Shown here: one piece after another, positions 48,420 to 61,365 of the stretch | Position numbering within the stretch: position 1 is the first letter of the stretch | How the letters are laid out: the number at the start of each line of letters is the position of its first letter | Origin: Candidatus Gastranaerophilales bacterium | GTDB taxonomy: Bacteria > Cyanobacteriota > Vampirovibrionia > Gastranaerophilales > Gastranaerophilaceae | DNA length: 64,000 bases | Direction of reading: 5' to 3' | Assembly (NCBI GenBank): GCA_944325885.1 | Contig: CALVBT010000001.1 | Coordinates: 186,001-250,000 of the forward strand | Made by a program: the position numbers and the translations under genes | Notes under the pieces: generated by a model | What the model saw: only the letters and a program-made list of their open reading frames with translations | What the model was told of the DNA's origin: nothing | Databases searched by the model: none

Positions 48420-51086
48420 ATGGCAGAAATAAATTATTTTGAAATAATACAAAACAAACTTGATGCACTGGTTGAAAAAATTATCCAAAAAGAAAATTCT
48501 GACGAGAATTTTCGTATTACTTATGCACAAATCCTTGAAAAAATTAATACAAAAATGGATTTGTTCGCCAACAATGATGCATCAGAGCGTATTAATATTC
48601 TAGGCTCAGAAATCGGCAAACTGATGAGAGAACGTCAGGAAGTCGTTGATGCAAAGTTTGCTACCGTAAAAGGCGAGTTCGATAATTTAAATCAAATACT
48701 TGCCGAATCTTTAAAAACACCGGAACTGCTTGCTGCTTTTAATAAGATTCAAAACCAGATTCATTATTTTTCTGAAGAACAGGAAAATCAAAAATTTGCT
48801 TTTAATTCTATTGTTGCTCATATAGAAAAATTCGGCACTCTTGAAGAAACAAACGACAGCATGCGAGCCAATTTTGCTATTGTAAAAGAGCAAAATACAA
48901 TAATAAATGAAAATGTTAACAAGCAAATGGATTTGCTAAAACAGTTTAATGAATCTGTTGAAACTCATAACAAACAGGCTCTGGAAGATCTTAATACTAT
49001 CATTTTCAGCCTGAAGGAATTTTCAGAATCTGTTAATGATGATGCAAAAGAAGTAAAAGAGTTTGTTAATTCAAAAGTAGATTCTATTATTAAAAAGATT
49101 CATGAAACAGATTCTTTTATTGAAGTTTTGAATACAAATTTAACCACTCTCGTTCAGGTTGTGGGCAATATATTTGATGATGAAGAATTTGCTTCTTTAA
49201 GAGATGATGTTGCTGATGTTCTTGTAAAGATTAATATTCTTTCAGAGGCATTGAACAATATTGCCACAAAATCTGAAATGCTTGAAAATTCAGAAAAAAA
49301 TAAAGAAGAAATCAAGCAGCACAACCTGGAATTGATTACAAATCTCGAAACAAAAATTCTTTCAAAACTTGATTTTTCTGATTTGAATCAAATAAAAGAT
49401 TGTACAGAAAAAATGTTTTTCCAGGGTACGGAAGTTCTGAAAGAAGAAATGTGGTCGCTTAAGGACTCTGTTTCTAATATTGAAAAGATTTCTGTTACAA
49501 AAGAAGATTTTGATAAAAAACTGGAAGAATTAAATACACTGATATCAGAGCAAACCAACCTTTTAAGAGATGATATAACAGATGTTATTTCAGAAGAAAG
49601 CGTTGCCGCATCAAATCAAATAGCAGAAATTTCTGATGTTTTATCAGGTTTCAAATCTGATTTTCAGGCATCTATCGCAGACGAAAATGCAAAAGCCTCT
49701 CAAAAAATGGAAGAGGTTTCAGATTCTCTGGATATATTAAAATATGACATCAAAGAAATTGTATCTGCAGAGGCCCAAAATTCTTATGACAGAATAAGTG
49801 AAATCTCTGCTACTATTGATACACTCAAAAAAGATATTTCCGACATTATTTTGAATGAGCAGAATGAACAAATCTCTGATGCATTGAAAAATCTTCAGAA
49901 CAAATTTGTCACACAGCTTATTCAAATTGCGGACAATATTTCTTTCTCTGCTGAGGCAGAGGATATCAATGACAGTATCTTGAACTGTTCTGATGAAATT
50001 AAACAAAAAATATCTGAAGACATTCAGGATATAAAACAGGAAATAGAACTCTTAAAGGGTGTTTCTGATACAGAAAACGAAAATATCGTAAATCTTTTAA
50101 CCAGAATAGACGATGCTTTGCAGTCTGATATTTCAAAAGATTTGAAAACCCTTATTTCCGGCTTTAAGCTTTTGACTAACGGTCTTAAAGAAGAAAAAGA
50201 CTATGTCTACACTCTGCCGGATATTGAATCTGATTTGTCTAAAATCAGACTCGATTTGAGTAATATACAAAAAACACTTGTCAATGTTGACGGTATTACA
50301 GAAGAAAACAGTACTGATATTAGTTCAAAAATCAATAATATCAAACAGGCTATAGACAAACTGAGCGAAAGTCCGATAACTGCAGAAGTTTCGGAAATCA
50401 AGGCACTGTTTGACGGCCTGAACGAAGATATTGCCAGCATCAGCAAACGTACGAACAAACTTATTATTGCGTCTGATGAAACAAATAAGGTATTGAGAGC
50501 AAATATTCAGTCTTTCACTTCTTTGATAAATGCTTTTGAAAAACAGAGCCGTGAATTTTACAACTCTGCATTTTTGCGTGATACAAGTGCCAGAGTAGAT
50601 AACATTGCACAGTCCGTAAATGCAATTTTAAAATCAGATCAGGTTCTAAACGAAGCATTTATGTATATGGGTGAGTGGATTGATTCTGCCAGTGATTCTT
50701 TTGATGAAATTAAAAATGATTTAACAAAAATCAAAAGAAATCTAATGTCAGATGAAGAAACTCCTATAGAAAAACTTGAAATGAGCTTTAGAAACCTTTG
50801 TAAAAAGGTTGAGTTTCAGGATGCAAGAATCGAAGCTATCGATGACAAACTCAATAAAATAATTTCTCAGCAGAATGAAACAAAAGAACTCAAATCTTTA
50901 ATAGAGTATGTTGCATCTCAGGTTAGTGTAACTAACGAAAAAATTATTGAAAATGAAAAATTTGCTCAAAAAATAAATAATATGGAAAAACAGCTCAAAA
51001 AGATTGAAAAAAATGTTGCTGTAATTACAGAATTCATTGACGAAGAAGAGTCCGATGAATTCGAAGAAGAAGATATGATGAATTAG
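48420..51086 (+). CDS. Large coiled-coil protein (888 residues) with 29-residue repeats
   Basis: No family recognised. No signal peptide or membrane segment; nearly all of it is predicted amphipathic helix, rich in Glu, Lys, Ile, Ser and Asn. Three tandem 29-residue repeats occupy residues 385-471 (49572-49832), each starting with D-[IF] and containing an 'ISEIS/EEVSD' core; a fourth partial unit follows. The C-terminus is very acidic ('DEEESDEFEEEDMMN'). It could be a cytoskeletal or scaffold protein of the tropomyosin/crescentin type in form. The stop overlaps that of a small opposing gene. Confidence 0.85.
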   Translation: MAEINYFEIIQNKLDALVEKIIQKENSDENFRITYAQILEKINTKMDLFANNDASERINILGSEIGKLMRERQEVVDAKFATVKGEFDNLNQILAESLKTPELLAAFNKIQNQIHYFSEEQENQKFAFNSIVAHIEKFGTLEETNDSMRANFAIVKEQNTIINENVNKQMDLLKQFNESVETHNKQALEDLNTIIFSLKEFSESVNDDAKEVKEFVNSKVDSIIKKIHETDSFIEVLNTNLTTLVQVVGNIFDDEEFASLRDDVADVLVKINILSEALNNIATKSEMLENSEKNKEEIKQHNLELITNLETKILSKLDFSDLNQIKDCTEKMFFQGTEVLKEEMWSLKDSVSNIEKISVTKEDFDKKLEELNTLISEQTNLLRDDITDVISEESVAASNQIAEISDVLSGFKSDFQASIADENAKASQKMEEVSDSLDILKYDIKEIVSAEAQNSYDRISEISATIDTLKKDISDIILNEQNEQISDALKNLQNKFVTQLIQIADNISFSAEAEDINDSILNCSDEIKQKISEDIQDIKQEIELLKGVSDTENENIVNLLTRIDDALQSDISKDLKTLISGFKLLTNGLKEEKDYVYTLPDIESDLSKIRLDLSNIQKTLVNVDGITEENSTDISSKINNIKQAIDKLSESPITAEVSEIKALFDGLNEDIASISKRTNKLIIASDETNKVLRANIQSFTSLINAFEKQSREFYNSAFLRDTSARVDNIAQSVNAILKSDQVLNEAFMYMGEWIDSASDSFDEIKNDLTKIKRNLMSDEETPIEKLEMSFRNLCKKVEFQDARIEAIDDKLNKIISQQNETKELKSLIEYVASQVSVTNEKIIENEKFAQKINNMEKQLKKIEKNVAVITEFIDEEESDEFEEEDMMN
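49572..49832 (+). repeat. Three tandem 87-bp (29-codon) coding repeats
   Basis: Units at 49572-49658, 49659-49745 and 49746-49832 encode 29 residues each. All begin with Asp and share the pattern of a small residue run, 'Q/R-I/M-x-E-I/V-S', then 'L-x-x-x-K'. DNA identity is moderate, so the duplication is old; a fourth partial unit may follow. Confidence 0.7.
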
Positions 51087-51744: not shown

Positions 51745-52104
51745 TTATTGAACAACTTTTATCTTAAAATTTTGAATAGGCTGGTTAGTCAGGAGTTTTT
51801 TCTGATTTTCCAGCGTATTTTTTATGGAAAATATCCATCCGGTTTTCGGGTTTACAAATAAAAAGAATGCCGCCTGACTTTCCAGTATGCGCTGGGCTTT
51901 GTCTATAATCAATTCGCCCTTGTCGGACAGTTCAAAAACAGTGAATGACATAGGCGTTGTCAGGTTGCTGTCTATATAACAGTCATACATTGTTTTTGAC
52001 AGCCTTGTTGTGTCTTTTAGGACTGGCTGTTCTTTATATGTTGTACACCATTTGTAGAGCTTGGTTATAATTTCATCTATTTTATTTTGGTTGCTGTTTG
52101 TCAA
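51745..52104 (-). CDS. Unknown 119-residue protein coupled to the GGDEF/HD-GYP gene
   Basis: Starts with TTG overlapping the upstream TGA stop (TTGA, 52101-52104), with AAGGA 7 bases ahead. No family recognised; alpha/beta composition, soluble, one central strand-rich part ('AAFFLFVNPKTGWIFSI'). Translational coupling to the diguanylate cyclase/HD protein suggests a partner or regulatory function in the same pathway. Confidence 0.7.
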   Translation of the reverse strand: MTNSNQNKIDEIITKLYKWCTTYKEQPVLKDTTRLSKTMYDCYIDSNLTTPMSFTVFELSDKGELIIDKAQRILESQAAFFLFVNPKTGWIFSIKNTLENQKKLLTNQPIQNFKIKVVQ

Positions 52105-54032
52105 ATTTGATCCTTATTTTTTTCCTGTTTCTTTTCGTTTACAAGACCAACAAATTCATCCACAAGCTTTTCATTCCATTTTTTGCCGGATTCTAGTCTT
52201 ATGATTTCAACGGCTTCGTCTTTTGAGCGGGCAATTCTGTAAGGTCTGCTCTGTGTCAGTGCAAAATATGCATCTATCAGCAGTATAATCTGTGATGAAA
52301 TCGGAATGTCTTCTCCGCTGAGCATTTGAGGGTATCCTGTGCCGTCCCAGTTTTCGTGGTGGGCTTCTATTATCGGAACAATATCAGCTATTGCCGTTAT
52401 TGGTTTTAGGATTGTACGTGCAGCAATGAGCGGGTGTTCTTTGATTTTTTGCTTTTCTTCATCGGTCAGAGGCTCTTTTTTGTTTAAGATTTCCTCAGGA
52501 ATCATAAGTTTGCCTATGTCATAGAGCATCATTGCAATTTTGAGTTTGTCTATATCTTCTTTAGAAAGCTCCATTTTTTTTGCAAGCCCAATAGCCATAG
52601 AAACTTTTGCTTTTGTCAGACCTCTCTGGTAGTGCGCATTATATATTTGTGCCAGTGTATCCGCAACAGAAAAAAGAGTGTCCTTGGTTTCTACTGTGTT
52701 TATTGATTTTAGTTTTGAAGTGACTTCTTTTGCAATTTTGTCGGGTATCGGCACTTTTTGTTTTGTCAAAATGTCCATAAATGCGCCAAAAGCTACTTCA
52801 TGCCATTCTGCTTCGTCATCCATAGCCTTGGCCATTGTTACACGGTTTCTGCCGTTAATTTTTGATTTATACATAGCCTGATCAGTCATGTCGAGAAGTT
52901 CATCGAGTTTTATTGAATGTTCGGGAAATGTTCCCACACCTACACTCGCTGTAATGTGGCCTATCGTGTCGAGTTCCTGTGCTTCTATTGCTGCACGTAT
53001 TCTTTCTGCAGCTATCATAGCACCTGAAGAATCAACACCGGGCAAAAGTACAGAAAACTCTTCTCCCCCAAGACGTGCAGGCACATCTATTGAACGGGCA
53101 TTTTTCTTAAGAATATTCGCAATGGTTTTTATTGCAAGGTCGCCAAAGAAGTGTCCGTATGTGTCGTTAATCTTTTTTAAATAGTCCAAATCCAGACTTA
53201 TAAGTGAAAATGGCTGATGAAGCCTTTGCGCACGTTCTGCTTCTTTTTGAAGAGCCTGATTAAAGTATCTTCGATTATACAGTTCTGTAAGAGAGTCTGT
53301 CACGGCCTCTTTTTTCAGATTTTCAAAGAGGTTTGCAATTGTTATTGCCATTTCTACCTGATTTGCAAACAGTGTTAAAAAGTTCAGTTCTTTGTCCGTG
53401 ACCTCGCTTCTTGGTGAAAATATCATCATAACACCAAACGGCACATTCGACGGGTACAGCGGAATACAAATTATGCTCTTACTAACCCCGAGTTTGTTGA
53501 TTTCTACAATATTTTCCGGAGTAAAATCATATAAAAGACTGTTAATGACCTCCAGATATGCCTGTGATGAGAGTATGTTTCTTTCTTCCAGTGCCTGAGT
53601 GATGAGCATGTTTTTGTCATATTTCAGGTGGTATTCGTGTATATCTATGTTTTTTTCAGCCAGAAAATTTTCCAGCTTTTTTAAAATCGGGCTGTCAGAA
53701 TATGCTTTTACCTTGTAGTATTTCCCTTTTTCATCGTTACATAGCTGCAGAATGGTACTGTTTATATAGCCCATCTCTCCGTGCAGAGAGTTTACGAGCT
53801 TTTGCAGTACACTGGATAGCGGCTCTGCGGAATTCAACAGCTCCCACACGTGTTTTAATGTTAAGAAGGCCTTGTTTGCCTGATCAAGTTCCTGTGTTCT
53901 TTGCACTATTTCTTTTTCCAGTGCAAGATTACGTTCATATATCTCAATAAATTCTTTTTTGTTGTTTGAGATGCTGTATTCTATTTCATTAACTTTGCGA
54001 GTATATTCTTTGAATTTTTTAAAGAAATCCAT
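52101..54032 (-). CDS. GAF-GGDEF-HD-GYP signalling protein with altered HD motif
   Basis: 643 residues. A coiled coil (about 1-55) is followed by a GAF domain (about 60-245), a GGDEF domain and an HD-GYP domain. The cyclase active site is intact as G322-G-E-E-F ('RLGGEEFSVLLPG'), and an RxxD inhibitory site (RSID) sits exactly five residues ahead, so c-di-GMP synthesis with product inhibition is expected. In the HD-GYP half, 'AHHENWDGTGYPQML' is intact, but the HD signature reads 'LYDIGK' (Y504-D505) instead of 'LHDIGK', losing a metal-ligand His. The phosphodiesterase may be inactive or altered. Cytoplasmic; input probably through GAF. Confidence 0.92.
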   Translation of the reverse strand: MDFFKKFKEYTRKVNEIEYSISNNKKEFIEIYERNLALEKEIVQRTQELDQANKAFLTLKHVWELLNSAEPLSSVLQKLVNSLHGEMGYINSTILQLCNDEKGKYYKVKAYSDSPILKKLENFLAEKNIDIHEYHLKYDKNMLITQALEERNILSSQAYLEVINSLLYDFTPENIVEINKLGVSKSIICIPLYPSNVPFGVMMIFSPRSEVTDKELNFLTLFANQVEMAITIANLFENLKKEAVTDSLTELYNRRYFNQALQKEAERAQRLHQPFSLISLDLDYLKKINDTYGHFFGDLAIKTIANILKKNARSIDVPARLGGEEFSVLLPGVDSSGAMIAAERIRAAIEAQELDTIGHITASVGVGTFPEHSIKLDELLDMTDQAMYKSKINGRNRVTMAKAMDDEAEWHEVAFGAFMDILTKQKVPIPDKIAKEVTSKLKSINTVETKDTLFSVADTLAQIYNAHYQRGLTKAKVSMAIGLAKKMELSKEDIDKLKIAMMLYDIGKLMIPEEILNKKEPLTDEEKQKIKEHPLIAARTILKPITAIADIVPIIEAHHENWDGTGYPQMLSGEDIPISSQIILLIDAYFALTQSRPYRIARSKDEAVEIIRLESGKKWNEKLVDEFVGLVNEKKQEKNKDQI

Positions 54033-56383: not shown

Positions 56384-58480
56384 ATGGCTAAGATATTGTT
56401 GGTATCGGATAACAATGAACAGAACCTCAGAATAGAGCAAACCCTAAAGAAGCTTGCTCTGGCTGTTATTGTCTGTACTGATGAAAAAGAGATATTAAAC
56501 TATGCGGAAAAATCTCTTGTTTCTTTGATTATCGTTGACGAGGCGGTAAAATCTCTTGATGCTCTTATACTTTGTAAAAAACTCCCGTCTTATACGGTAA
56601 AAGAAAATATCTGTGTAGTATCTCTTGTGGACGCCGATACAACCAATCAGGAGATATTAAAACTCACAGCCTCTTATGTTACAAAACCCTTGAACGATTT
56701 GATTTTAGGCTCTTGCGTACTGTCTAATCTCAAACTTAAAAAGGCTGTTGATACTCTGTCTATGAACAATAGCGAGCTGGCAAAAAGCCTTTATCAGCTG
56801 GATGTTTTGTACAACACTTCTACTCAGCTTGCAGGTTCTTTGGACAAACAAAAACTGATAAATATTATGATAGACGGTCTGGAAAAGAGTTTGAGCTTTT
56901 CTTTGTCTTCTACTCTTGTATTTAATGACGAGCATCATGTTGATTTGATAATCAATTCGCTATACGAGATTTCTCCACGTTTGGAACATTCTTTAAAACT
57001 CCGTGCTATATTGAGCTACAGAGCTTTGTTTGACAAAAAAAGAATTCCCTATGATTTAAATGTCAATGATATTACGGTTATAAAGAACATAAAGCATCCG
57101 ATAGAAGAATATGACCTGAATATTTTGAAATTTGACAATCTTTTTGCGCCGATAAATGTAGGTGAAAAGTTTTTCGGGCTTATTGAAGTCTTTAGAGAGT
57201 CGGATTTTTCACAAGAAGATACAACCTGCTTTCAAACACTGGCAAGACAGGTGTCTTTGCCTTTGGAAAATGCCGAGCTTTATGAAGAAATAAAAAATAC
57301 CAATACAAAGCTTGAAAAACTTGAGCGGCTTAAATCAGAGTTTATATCCATTGTTTCTCATGAGCTGAGGACACCTTTGACTGCGATAAAAAATTCTCTT
57401 GAAATTTGTTTGAGCGGCAAGGCAGGCGAGGTCAGCTCCATAATGGACAAGTTCTTAAATATGGCTCGTCGTAATGTTTCCAGACTTTCAGGCATTATAA
57501 ATGACCTTCTTGATTTGTCTAAAATTGAAGCCGGCAAAATGGACTTTAAATTTGAAAAGGCAAATATTAACGTACCTGTAGAATTTATAAAAAATACTTT
57601 TGAAAATGTAGCAAAAGACAAGAATATAGACCTTGTACTGGATAAGGACGATGATATTTTTGATACTTATATAGACAATCAAAGAATAGAGCAGGTTGTG
57701 TCCAATCTTGTCTCAAATGCTATAAAATTCACTAACGAAAACGGCAAAATAACGGTAAAAACCGAAAAAATAAAGCAGTCTGATATTGATAAGTCAAAAC
57801 TTGTCGGGGTAGAAAATCCTGTATTTTATGAAAATTACGTAAAGGTTTCTGTTGCAGATAACGGTATCGGTATTGCACAAGAGGATTTGAAAAAGGTATT
57901 TGATCAGTTCCAGCAGATAGAAAACTCCTTGAACAGGCAAAACGGCGGCACCGGACTCGGTCTGCCTATTGCAAAACAATTGATAGAAGCGCATAAGGGT
58001 TTCATCTGGGTAGAAAGCGAACTCAACCGGGGGACTACTTTTGCATTTGTTATCCCTGTTTTGAGTGAAAAAGAAAAATTTCTCATTGATATGGACAAGG
58101 ATATTTTAAAAGCAAAAAATTGTGATCAGAGCCTTTTGTTGCTCCTTGTTCAAGAGAATGAAGATGCAAAACCATCTTTCCTTGATGATGTTAGAGCAGA
58201 GCGTGTTTCTATAATGCGAAAAACTGCAAACACAAGAGAAGTCTATTTTAATGAGGACGGTAAAAATTATCTGGCTATTCTTGTACCGGAGGCGGATAAA
58301 TTTGCCCAGAGCTTTATCGAGAAGAAAATAGAAGGCACTATTTCTCCTGTTGAAGAAACAGAGAGCAAAAAGTATGATATATTGTATTCTACAGAGCTGT
58401 TTCCCGACAACGGAAAAGACGCAAATGAATTGATGTCAAATGCTCGTAGTGCATTAAATAAGAATTTGGCGGAGGTATAA
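56384..58480 (+). CDS. Histidine kinase with N-terminal pseudo-receiver, GAF and C-terminal GGDEF-like domains
   Basis: 698 residues. Residues 1-115 form a receiver-like domain with D9, D52 and K101 ('SYVTKPLND') but only part of the acidic pocket. A coiled linker and GAF-like domain (about 145-300) follow, then HisKA with H326 in 'IVSHELRTPLTAIKN' and a complete HATPase ('NLVSNAIKFTN', 'VADNGIGIA', 'GGTGLGLPIAKQL'). After residue 560 the chain resembles a GGDEF fold without catalytic residues: 'GKNYLAILVPEADKFA' and 'FPDNGKDANELMSNARSALN' align by eye with GGDEF core elements. No membrane segment, so it senses a cytoplasmic signal. A CheY-like gene follows after 3 bases. Confidence 0.9.
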   Translation: MAKILLVSDNNEQNLRIEQTLKKLALAVIVCTDEKEILNYAEKSLVSLIIVDEAVKSLDALILCKKLPSYTVKENICVVSLVDADTTNQEILKLTASYVTKPLNDLILGSCVLSNLKLKKAVDTLSMNNSELAKSLYQLDVLYNTSTQLAGSLDKQKLINIMIDGLEKSLSFSLSSTLVFNDEHHVDLIINSLYEISPRLEHSLKLRAILSYRALFDKKRIPYDLNVNDITVIKNIKHPIEEYDLNILKFDNLFAPINVGEKFFGLIEVFRESDFSQEDTTCFQTLARQVSLPLENAELYEEIKNTNTKLEKLERLKSEFISIVSHELRTPLTAIKNSLEICLSGKAGEVSSIMDKFLNMARRNVSRLSGIINDLLDLSKIEAGKMDFKFEKANINVPVEFIKNTFENVAKDKNIDLVLDKDDDIFDTYIDNQRIEQVVSNLVSNAIKFTNENGKITVKTEKIKQSDIDKSKLVGVENPVFYENYVKVSVADNGIGIAQEDLKKVFDQFQQIENSLNRQNGGTGLGLPIAKQLIEAHKGFIWVESELNRGTTFAFVIPVLSEKEKFLIDMDKDILKAKNCDQSLLLLLVQENEDAKPSFLDDVRAERVSIMRKTANTREVYFNEDGKNYLAILVPEADKFAQSFIEKKIEGTISPVEETESKKYDILYSTELFPDNGKDANELMSNARSALNKNLAEV

Positions 58481-58483
58481 TAA

Positions 58484-58855
58484 ATGAGCGGCAGTAAGAA
58501 AATCCTTATAGTTGATGATGAGCAGGATATTGTAGAAACTCTTAAATTTATGCTCGAAGCACAGGGCTATGAGTGTTTTTGTGCATACGACGGGGAGAAC
58601 GGCCTCAATATGGCAAAAGAACTTATTCCTGATTTGATGATTCTTGATGTTATGATGCCAAAAATCAACGGCTATAAGATAAGCAGACTGCTCAAATATG
58701 ATAACAAATATAAAGATATCCCGATTATTATGATTACTGCACGTTCTCAAGAGGAAGACAAAGTAATAGGTCAGGAAACCGGCGTGAATGAGTATATTAC
58801 AAAACCCTTTGAACTGGATGAAGTCATAAACAAAGTAAATGAGTATCTGGCATGA
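58484..58855 (+). CDS. CheY-like single-domain response regulator
   Basis: 123 residues with the whole phosphorylation pocket: D11-D12, phospho-acceptor D55 ('LMILDVMMPK'), T85 and K107 ('YITKPFE'). No output domain, so it works by protein contact. GGAGG ribosome-binding site; the gene is 3 bases behind the histidine kinase, its likely phosphodonor, and 26 bases ahead of the PilB-like ATPase gene, a possible target. Confidence 0.94.
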   Translation: MSGSKKILIVDDEQDIVETLKFMLEAQGYECFCAYDGENGLNMAKELIPDLMILDVMMPKINGYKISRLLKYDNKYKDIPIIMITARSQEEDKVIGQETGVNEYITKPFELDEVINKVNEYLA

Positions 58856-58881: not shown

Positions 58882-60276
58882 ATGGAGTTTGTAAGAAATA
58901 AAACTTTAGAAAAATTAAAATATGACCTTGTCAGGGACAATCTCATTAAATACGAAGATTTGGAAACAGCAGAGCAGGTTGCTGAGGCTCAGCATGTTAA
59001 TATAGGGCAGGTGCTAATTTCTTCCGGACTTATTTCAGAAGAAACTCTGCTTAAATTTTTAGAAAGCAAACTCCACATTCCTTATGTAAACCTTGAGGAT
59101 TATTCTCTTGATAAAAAGTGTCTCAGTTATATAAATTTAAACAATGCACAGAAATATAAGGTTATACCTCTTTTTGAAATCGAAGGGATTTTGACTGTTG
59201 CAATGTCTGATCCTTTGGATTTGTTTGCTATAGACAAAATTGTAGAAGATGCAAAATGTGAGATTGAGCCTGTAATTTCGTCGGAAAATGCGATTTTGAA
59301 AAAGATAGAGGAGTATTACTCCAGCGGCAGTTCTGTAGGGCAGATTTTTATTGACGAAAACAAGCCAAAGTACGACTGGCGTGAGGTTTTGAATAATGAA
59401 GAACTCACAAACAGCCTTTCTGATGAGCATATCCAAAAATTAATAAGAGCAATTTTAAAACAGGCAATTTCGGATGATATCCATGAACTCTTTTTTGAGC
59501 ATATACCTAACGGGTTGAGCGTTACATTCAGAAAAAACGCACAGAATGTATCTACGGGTGAGATACCGGCAATGCTTGTGTCTTCTTTTATTGCAAGGTT
59601 AAAAACGCTTTCGAATCTCGACCCTACTGTTTCTGAACTTCCACAGCTGGGCAAATTGAGTTTTAAGGTGGATGATGTTGCCTTGATAGCCAGTATATCA
59701 GCATTTCCGACTATACATGGCGAGAGAATTTCCATAAAAATATACAAACCGCCCAAAAAGCTTTCTGATACAGGACTGGATGAAAAGAAAATAAACACTA
59801 TCCGCAAAGCTATGTCAACACCGGGGATTGTTCTTGTTTGCGGTGCGTCATTGAGCGGCAAAACTCATATGATTTATTCCATCCTTTCAGATATAGCTAC
59901 TCCTGACAAAAACGTTATGACTATTGAGTCTATAACAAAATATAATCTGGAGAATGTAAATCAGTGTGAGCTTAACGAGCATATAGGCTTTAATCTGGAC
60001 AAGGCTATGAGATTTATAGAGTTCCAATCTCCCGAGGTATTGTATTTTGAGGGAATAAGTACAAAAGAGGGGCTGGATTATTTTATTTCTCTTGTATTTA
60101 AAAATAAGGTCTTGATAACGGAGTTTTTGGCAGAAAATATTGCTGATTTGATGAAAAAAATGTCTATGAGCGAGTTCTCTATGTTTAAATCTTTGTTAAA
60201 TTGCTTAATTTTTCTCCATAACAAAGACAGCGTCGAGGTTTTTGACAAAAAAGCTCTGGAAAAATACTTCGCTTAA
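58882..60276 (+). CDS. GspE/PilB-like ATPase with degenerate motifs and MshEN-type N-terminus
   Basis: 464 residues. The N-terminal domain (about 1-150) matches MshEN/GspE-N: 'IGQVLISSGLISEETLLKFL', then 'KYKVIPLFEIEGILTVAMSD'. The secretion-ATPase core follows, with Walker A 'GASLSGKT' (K327). The rest is altered. The Walker B region reads 'PEVLYFEGIS', with the usual G-E of 'VGEIRD' inverted to E-G and Arg/Asp lost. The His box (normally LSTLHTN) reads 'LITEFLAEN'. The tetracysteine zinc motif of PilB/GspE is absent. It may bind nucleotide and c-di-GMP but probably does not power pilus extension normally. GGAG ribosome-binding site. Confidence 0.85.
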   Translation: MEFVRNKTLEKLKYDLVRDNLIKYEDLETAEQVAEAQHVNIGQVLISSGLISEETLLKFLESKLHIPYVNLEDYSLDKKCLSYINLNNAQKYKVIPLFEIEGILTVAMSDPLDLFAIDKIVEDAKCEIEPVISSENAILKKIEEYYSSGSSVGQIFIDENKPKYDWREVLNNEELTNSLSDEHIQKLIRAILKQAISDDIHELFFEHIPNGLSVTFRKNAQNVSTGEIPAMLVSSFIARLKTLSNLDPTVSELPQLGKLSFKVDDVALIASISAFPTIHGERISIKIYKPPKKLSDTGLDEKKINTIRKAMSTPGIVLVCGASLSGKTHMIYSILSDIATPDKNVMTIESITKYNLENVNQCELNEHIGFNLDKAMRFIEFQSPEVLYFEGISTKEGLDYFISLVFKNKVLITEFLAENIADLMKKMSMSEFSMFKSLLNCLIFLHNKDSVEVFDKKALEKYFA

Positions 60277-60387: not shown

Positions 60388-61365
60388 TTGGCACTAGAGA
60401 AAGTTACGCTTCAAAATGCCGGAGGTTCACAAACGGTTGAGCCAAAAGCACAGGGAAGTCAAAATAGCTTTAATACTTCTTTTGGCAATCTGTTCGTAAA
60501 CGAACAGACGGTAGCTCAACAGCCGCAGCAAAATTCTAACGGATCTGCAGGCAGTTCAGCTCTGTTCGGTAATGGTATTGTTCAAGAAAATGAAGTAAAA
60601 CCTCAAAATACCGAAACAGCAGTACAAAAAAATAATGCTTCGGGCCTTGGTGTTTTTTCAAATTATTTTAAGAGCATAATTCCTACTTTTAAAGAAGCTA
60701 ATGATAAGGCAAACCAGTACAATGCAGCTGTTAACAATGCATTGAAATATATCCCGAGTCCTTATGATTTAGATATACTTGCTAATTCAAACCCAAGAAT
60801 CAAGGCTATTCTTGCAGAAAACGGTCTGCCTGTAAAAATGAATTATGATAACTTAAAAACAATAAAACATACGCACCTCGCAACAACAACAGAGTTTGCT
60901 ACAGCTATTGGTGAAGAACTCGGATTGAGTTCTTCGGAAATAGAAACAATGAAAAAAGGTGCTGCTTTACATGATTTGGGCAAGTCGCTTGTCCCTGCCG
61001 AAATATTAAATAAAAACGGCAGACTAACACCGGAAGAAAGAAAGATTATCAATTTGCATTCTGTTTTGGGATATGAATTGTTAAAAGGTTTGAATCTCGG
61101 TACAAATGTTGCAGAAATCGCGAGAGATCATCACAATCCGAACTCTACAAACAAATATGCTCAAATAGTCAGGGCTGCTGATGTTTATTCTGCAATGAGA
61201 GAACAACGTTCTTACAAACCGGCAAAATCTCATGAAGAAGCTATGGCTGTTCTCAGGGATATGAATATCAAACCGCAAATCTTAAATGCACTGGATAAAG
61301 TATACGGAAATCCGAAAAAAGATACTGTTACTGTGCCTTTTCATACTCAAACTGCAGTTGCTTAA
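60388..61365 (+). CDS. HD-domain protein related to HD-GYP but lacking the GYP motif
   Basis: 325 residues, TTG start with AGGA upstream. The first 100 residues are Gln/Asn/Ser-rich and disordered-looking. The HD domain has H195-D196 in 'AALHDLGKSLVPAEILNKNG', then 'NLHSVLGYELLKGLN' and 'AEIARDHHNPNSTNKYAQIV', then 'RAADVYSAMREQRSYKPA'. In HD-GYP phosphodiesterases the segment after HH is 'ERWDGTGYP'; here it is replaced by the shorter NPNSTNKYAQ. Metal ligands appear present, so hydrolysis of a phosphodiester or phosphate substrate remains possible. It overlaps the opposing TPR gene by 38 bases. Confidence 0.88.
   Translation: MALEKVTLQNAGGSQTVEPKAQGSQNSFNTSFGNLFVNEQTVAQQPQQNSNGSAGSSALFGNGIVQENEVKPQNTETAVQKNNASGLGVFSNYFKSIIPTFKEANDKANQYNAAVNNALKYIPSPYDLDILANSNPRIKAILAENGLPVKMNYDNLKTIKHTHLATTTEFATAIGEELGLSSSEIETMKKGAALHDLGKSLVPAEILNKNGRLTPEERKIINLHSVLGYELLKGLNLGTNVAEIARDHHNPNSTNKYAQIVRAADVYSAMREQRSYKPAKSHEEAMAVLRDMNIKPQILNALDKVYGNPKKDTVTVPFHTQTAVA

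Follow-up and report, generated by a model that had tools for sequence, protein, structure and literature searches.

The window, i.e. the whole 64,000-nucleotide stretch analysed here, comes from a host assembly of 2.17 Mb in 19 contigs that is about 97% complete. Its minus strand carries an ATG-initiated gene (52101..54032) for a 643-residue GAF-GGDEF-HD-GYP protein, classified below as type A, of which full-length orthologues exist. On the same strand Pfam places a GAF match at residues 144-230 (53343..53603; PF01590, E 8e-6), a GGDEF match at residues 243-397 (52842..53306; PF00990, E 2.2e-44) and an HD_5 match at residues 478-618 (E 4.7e-33); the HD-GYP domain as modelled with AF2 spans residues 425-636 (52125..52760). 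The full-length model has a pTM of 0.38, and its domain arrangement is therefore left uninterpreted.

A 119-aa ORF with a TTG start (51745..52104, minus strand) overlaps the stop of this gene; it has no match in Pfam or NCBIfam, a similar sequence adjoins the tandem at 31 of 62 orthologous loci, and it is possibly a co-translated partner of the tandem protein. The plus-strand gene at 48420-51086, found at 24 of the 62 loci, encodes an 888-aa coiled-coil protein of no known family that evolves faster than its neighbours (36-61% identity, as compared to 80-87% for PGI). On the other side lies a type II/IV secretion ATPase (58882-60276, plus strand) that begins with an MshEN domain, of a kind known to bind c-di-GMP; its neighbours are a histidine kinase (56384-58480) and, at 58484-58855, a response regulator. 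A 325-aa ORF at 60388-61365 (plus strand; HD_5 E 1.9e-19) has an HD domain in which H, HD, H and HH are intact and the GYP loop is missing, the sequence reading HHNPNSTNKY and then a deletion.

The cyclase half of the tandem protein carries DLDYLKKIND, an RxxD inhibitory site, RSID (residues 313-316; 53085..53096, minus strand), the GGEEF active-site motif (residues 322-326; 53055..53069, minus strand) and a Lys/Arg pair, K391 and R395. Five residues separate RSID from GGEEF, which we take to be the usual I-site spacing. With residue roles that are assumed after PleD, the domain combines its profile match with a GG[DE]EF signature, the metal-binding Asp, an Asn/Asp for base recognition and Lys/Arg phosphate contacts. 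On the strength of the intact signature and I-site the protein is predicted to be an active-looking diguanylate cyclase. The base-recognition position is Asp298, whereas GGDEF domains that make cGAMP are described with Ser at this site (PMC12943098), and the product of the window cyclase should thus be c-di-GMP.

The reference for the HD-GYP half is PmGH, whose metal ligands are E185, H189, H221, D222, H250, H276, H277 and D305, with K225, D183 and D308 as supporting residues; single mutation of the eight ligands abolished activity, E185 and D305 excepted (PMC4159591), so that H221 is essential in PmGH. The seven ligands scored here are these eight less E185, and the window protein has five of the seven. 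At the H221 position, the H of the HD signature, stands Tyr504 (codon TAT, 52521..52523, minus strand) within LYDIGK (residues 503-508); at the H189 position the H of GHSxxV is gone and the protein reads GLTKAKV, the alignment placing Leu472 (52617..52619, minus strand) there. The D308 position is Phe, and alignment to canonical relatives puts a Tyr at the E185 position, which matches the Y/F subfamily of HD-GYP proteins (PMC4159591). The counterparts of D222, K225, H250, H276, H277 and D305 are retained, and the HD-GYP profile match (HD_5) is accompanied by the loop HHENWDGTGYP (residues 558-568; 52329..52361, minus strand), which holds the counterparts of PmGH H276, H277 and Y285. The original prediction had described an intact GGEEF with an exactly spaced RxxD, an HD signature altered to LYDIGK and a preserved GYP loop, and all three descriptions hold. 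It had also ascribed the defect to the loss of a single histidine; Tyr504 is real and replaces a residue essential in PmGH, but the damage exceeds one codon because the H189 position is lost and the D308 position is Phe as well.

Tyr504 is the rule among orthologues. Across 64 distinct Gastranaerophilales orthologues, which align over more than 500 residues with an identity of 40% or more, the position is Tyr in 56, His in five, Asn in two and Phe in one, so that the majority of histidines which the original prediction had named as counting against it did not appear. The five His-bearing orthologues are altered elsewhere: D222 or H250 is replaced by N, HH by YR, D305 by N or S, or K225 by S or N. 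The draft state of the genome, in 19 contigs, might suggest a sequencing or assembly error or a decaying gene; however, 27 sequences of the genus and its near relatives encode this Tyr by either of two codons (TAT 23, TAC 4), and since these genomes were assembled separately, an assembly error does not explain it. A sequencing error is ruled out by the Tyr frequency together with the use of TAT and TAC, full-length ORFs occur in many genera, and the dN/dS of the domain is about 0.08 (8 pairs only); error and decay together are left with a negligible probability.

The same genome encodes, outside the window, one further GGDEF plus HD-GYP tandem, the only other one seen, termed L002 (G000:C8:16047-17756); it is a 627-aa open frame, 34% identical over residues 173-631. 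Its HD-GYP domain has 7/7 scored ligands (GHS, LLHDIGK, KQHP, HHE, DAY), and its GGDEF domain is degenerate, with DINNISQIN, GGDEI, Ser in place of the FK/LK Lys and Tyr where the window protein has R395. The FK/LK Lys and the R395 counterpart are presumed, after PleD, to bind GTP phosphates. The losses are thus reciprocal: GGEEF with 5/7 ligands in the window protein vs GGDEI with 7/7 in L002. It follows from these opposite losses that synthesis and hydrolysis would sit in separate members of the family, each still carrying the domain for the partner's reaction in a dead form.

This division extends to the 141 tandems that were aligned, from 184 loci. Type A (GGEEF, incomplete HD-GYP) comprises 68 Gastranaerophilales rows and 19 rows of families f8 and f13, the latter in most cases forming the C-terminal part of ORFs of about 1200-1420 aa (L095-L109, L111, L136, L147, L149); type B (degenerate GGDEF, 7/7 ligands) comprises 41 rows, and type C, with both halves intact though two rows have Glu for D305, comprises 12 rows of f8 and f13. 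One outgroup row, L166, is unplaced and was left out of the group counts because of its very long branch and odd letter make-up. GGEEF is intact in 86 of the 87 type A rows, the remaining row being masked. Near-identical rows of the genus were thinned, leaving 108 of 142 and then 45 rows for the trees, and 120 in alignment A2, from which L080, L091, L111, L160 and L166 are absent; L091, with masked bases, is also absent from alignment A1. When the motif columns are left out, two changes suffice to account for the three states on the 108-row tree (mean of 42.6 when shuffled), and on the unrooted 45-row tree each of the four groups falls on one side of a branch with support of 100/98 or better. 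Whether HD-GYP catalysis was lost once, at the base of type A, or twice is undecided (support 81/69), since joining type C to the f8/f13 type A rows, or to the Gastranaerophilales type A rows, was not rejected (p-AU 0.22 and 0.23). With unrooted trees, an intact common ancestor of the tandems is an assumption.

All seven scored ligands are present in 41 of 41 type B rows vs 0 of 87 type A rows. That the type A HD-GYP domain still works as an enzyme is very unlikely, its loss of catalysis being well supported by sequence, although residual activity or some metal binding in the window protein is possible since five scored ligands and K225 remain. A phosphodiesterase acting on c-di-GMP, another cyclic dinucleotide or pGpG might work with a reduced mono- or binuclear site made of D505, H533, H558, H559 and D587. 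These are largely kept by type A across the order (66, 64, 61, 62 and 60 of 68 rows, respectively), the best solved sequence relative is a 3'3'-cGAMP phosphodiesterase, and RpfG, called an active phosphodiesterase, is without H189 and E185 (PMC4159591). That proposal is nonetheless improbable: the position that is Tyr here is H221, whose mutation killed PmGH activity (PMC4159591), and D505, H533, HH or D587 is missing in turn from other type A orthologues, with nearly all of these residues gone in the f8/f13 type A proteins, so that the reduced site is not a family trait.

Two further observations are a lead towards a basic residue that might replace the metal: K476 is invariant in the order (68/68 rows), the alignment being locally unsure owing to a two-residue gap just before it, and the f8/f13 type A rows have Arg at the H189 position in 19/19. 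The f8/f13 rows also have Asn for the HD Asp in 18/19.

Conservation in type A lies instead in the residues that line the c-di-GMP pocket. The contacts were taken from two published structures with our own mapping, PmGH (Y285, R314, K317, the K235 carbonyl, A309, L310) and DvhD (Y523, L577, K582, Y621, M646, R650, Y652, E668, and in addition R653, mutated jointly with Y652). Despite the ligand loss the canonical contacts are kept: in the type A rows of the order, K518, L522, R596, Y598 and R599 are each found in 68/68, A591 in 67/68 and Y567, the GYP Tyr, in 66/68. R596, Y598 and R599 lie in RPYR (residues 596-599; 52236..52247, minus strand), which corresponds to PmGH R314 and K317 and to DvhD R650, Y652 and R653. 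Only partly kept are the counterparts of DvhD E668 (E614, 28/68, with Asp in 24/68) and of Y523 (Y468, 36/68). K/R at residue 527, the counterpart of DvhD K582, was dropped as a mark of a receptor; 10 of 12 intact type C rows are also K/R there.

Over the 68 rows of Gastranaerophilales, mean entropy is 0.55 at the 11 contact sites vs 1.33 for the domain, a value as low being reached by 12 of 20000 random site sets, which take no account of pocket residues being buried; at the seven ligand sites it is 0.88, reached by 1690 of 20000. The 19 distant type A rows have ligands at chance (10182/20000) and conserved contacts (45/20000). In the 41 type B rows the ligands are invariant, with entropy 0.00, and in the small set of 12 type C rows the contacts do not stand out (6445/20000). 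In type A, then, the alignments show the putative nucleotide-contact residues to be more constrained than the metal ligands, and this pocket conservation is the main new support for a nucleotide-binding, non-catalytic role that the HD-GYP domain may have.

These data bear also on whether the HD-GYP domain binds no nucleotide and has a purely structural or protein-interaction role, in dimerisation or partner docking. Such a role would explain the ligand loss and an evolutionary rate above that of GGDEF, the pairwise dN in HD-GYP being about 2.2 times as high. Median dN/dS is 0.023 for GAF (3 pairs), 0.033 for GGDEF (20), 0.104 for the linker (56) and 0.077 for HD-GYP (8), which is weak evidence, as the majority of the 210 genus pairs had dS outside 0.1-1.5 and were excluded. 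Inactive HD-GYP proteins are, moreover, thought to act on other c-di-GMP enzymes by interaction (PMC12570481). A domain without a nucleotide would not, however, be expected to hold L522, R596, Y598 and R599 in 68/68 rows and the GYP Tyr in 66/68 while its ligands vary, and a purely structural role appears unlikely, if less so than a surviving enzyme.

The AF2 model of residues 425-636, built from the 120-row alignment, has a pLDDT of 93.6, and its best Foldseek match is c-di-GMP-bound DvhD. VIA gives a Z of 22.7 to DvhD 9rbz (rmsd 2.6, 191 aligned), which is tied with 22.2 for PA4781 and 22.1 for PmGH. The predicted fold is that of HD-GYP, but fold alone cannot tell a receptor from an enzyme. 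In DvhD SQ stands for HD and Met-Asn for HH, no metal was seen in the structure at 1.8 A, and c-di-GMP is not hydrolysed (PMC13090378); its PAS/HD-GYP fragment binds c-di-GMP with an effective Kd of about 99 nM and 3'3'-cGAMP with one of about 501 nM, and c-di-GMP binding splays the stalk helices that lead into the HD-GYP domain. The binding of 3'3'-cGAMP, and with it the loose specificity of HD-GYP pockets, would allow the window domain to sense another ligand, e.g. 3'3'-cGAMP or pGpG, rather than c-di-GMP. With a fused cyclase whose Asp298 points to c-di-GMP as its product (cf. PMC12943098) such a choice of ligand is quite improbable, on a par with the reduced catalytic site or slightly below it.

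The explanation that we favour, with somewhat better than even confidence, is that the protein is a diguanylate cyclase with a dead HD-GYP phosphodiesterase, a domain that would most likely serve as a c-di-GMP-binding regulatory module. Like DvhD, the HD-GYP domain would bind c-di-GMP with no functional metal centre; binding may then shift the helix that joins HD-GYP to GGDEF, comparable to the splaying of the DvhD stalk, and the shift may tune c-di-GMP synthesis. The proposal of the original prediction that the HD-GYP half has become a c-di-GMP sensor thus gains pocket conservation and the DvhD precedent in its favour and is plausible. The I-site alone could supply the feedback, since RxxD already offers product inhibition.

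The other c-di-GMP proteins of the genome give this cyclase its setting. There are seven GGDEF matches and eight HD_5 matches, and the genome has no EAL match, so that HD-GYP proteins alone would carry the phosphodiesterase branch. By motif L002 and L193 are complete, and L002 is therefore not the sole candidate phosphodiesterase; L194 has Arg for the first His, and the aligned part of L196 keeps the ligands and ends GYF. The window protein and L192 are degenerate, L192 (G000:C5:30783-31280, in a 418-aa open frame) having LLQNIGK, HKE for HHE and GEP for GYP.

In a class sample of 194 genomes, type A is found in 97/97 genomes of the family (f1; E below 1e-170) and type B in 96/97 (E below 1e-200), the exception, G197, being 99% complete; A and B thus occur together in 96 of the 97, and the L002 type is single-copy in nearly all. 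A sample of 59 genomes of relatives includes 22 further members of the genus; 21 of these have type A, and the one without it, G004, is 80% complete. Motifs define the type in the 141 aligned rows only, and elsewhere it is inferred from E-value and coverage. A strict A/B pairing throughout the class was rejected: six f9/f15 genomes have one tandem each, with type B motifs (E 1e-40). Match counts, together with the motifs read for L097 and L113, give only type A in G095 (f8) and only type C in G128, and G135 has one tandem by match counts. Outside Gastranaerophilales, B thus occurs without A in f9 and f15, and A and/or C in f8 and f13. Because the pairing breaks outside the order, having both A and B characterises Gastranaerophilales, the only group to show it, and neither protein requires the other.

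A more speculative extension is that one GAF-GGDEF-HD-GYP family has split in Gastranaerophilales into two single-copy partners, which have lost opposite activities and in which each dead domain senses the reaction of the other: the cyclase would read c-di-GMP through its metal-free pocket and the phosphodiesterase would read GTP, or its partner, through its dead GGDEF, the two forming a c-di-GMP homeostat and possibly a complex. We regard this scheme as rather unlikely in its entirety.

HD-GYP domains are commonly labelled phosphodiesterases from a profile match, and a domain-based tally of cyclases and phosphodiesterases misleads for the window protein and L002 alike. The pair, lineage-wide in gut bacteria, offers a natural case in which to test how opposing domains of one chain come to be shared out over two proteins, and whether a dead domain is retained as a nucleotide sensor. 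In the open-licence PMC papers searched, no paper on the c-di-GMP proteins of this lineage and no order-wide reciprocal pair was found, and in the same literature DvhD (2026) was the sole case found of an inactive HD-GYP structure with bound c-di-GMP; a fused cyclase would extend a DvhD-like receptor role to feedback on synthesis. Since tandems with one dead half and an inactive HD-GYP receptor are already published, the window protein taken singly represents no new kind; what is new, as far as these papers go, is the reciprocal pair across the lineage.

One of the closest known systems is DvhD of Desulfovibrio vulgaris (PDB 9rbz, 9rc0), in which the HD motif is likewise lost and the GYP Tyr and R650, Y652 and R653, whose counterparts the window protein keeps, are present. 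DvhD is a proven non-catalytic c-di-GMP receptor, whereas the window protein is likened to it from sequence and predicted fold. DvhD is also without HH and D222, whereas the window protein keeps D505, H533, H558, H559 and D587; and DvhD is a dCache-PAS-HD-GYP membrane protein without GGDEF that acts on a periplasmic protease. Pfam gives GAF-GGDEF-HD for the window protein, not dCache-TM-PAS-HD-GYP, and because of this different architecture it does not count as a DvhD, even if it may act in a similar way. PmGH of Persephonella marina (PDB 4mcw; PMC4159591) shares the GAF plus HD-GYP arrangement and the pocket of R314, K317, Y285 and A309, and differs in having all eight metal ligands, in being active and in having no GGDEF. 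NosR of Burkholderia pseudomallei (PMC12570481) has a degenerate HD-GYP domain that is thought to affect the c-di-GMP level indirectly; the NosR-family model matches the window protein below the model cut-off, and NosR differs in being a response regulator that has no GGDEF and reads HG-GTP, so that its GYP motif is altered too. For L002 a precedent is CC_3396 of C. crescentus (PMC12943098), in which a degenerate GGDEF senses GTP and activates the fused phosphodiesterase; that enzyme is, however, of the EAL and not the HD-GYP kind, and GTP sensing by L002 is hypothetical only, by analogy. Tandems of GGDEF-EAL or GGDEF-HD-GYP with one inactive half are stated to be typical (PMC6205966), and the window protein resembles these in carrying opposing domains, one of them dead, on one chain; unlike the tandems of that account, it is one of two paralogues per genome with opposite dead halves, an arrangement that is order-wide.
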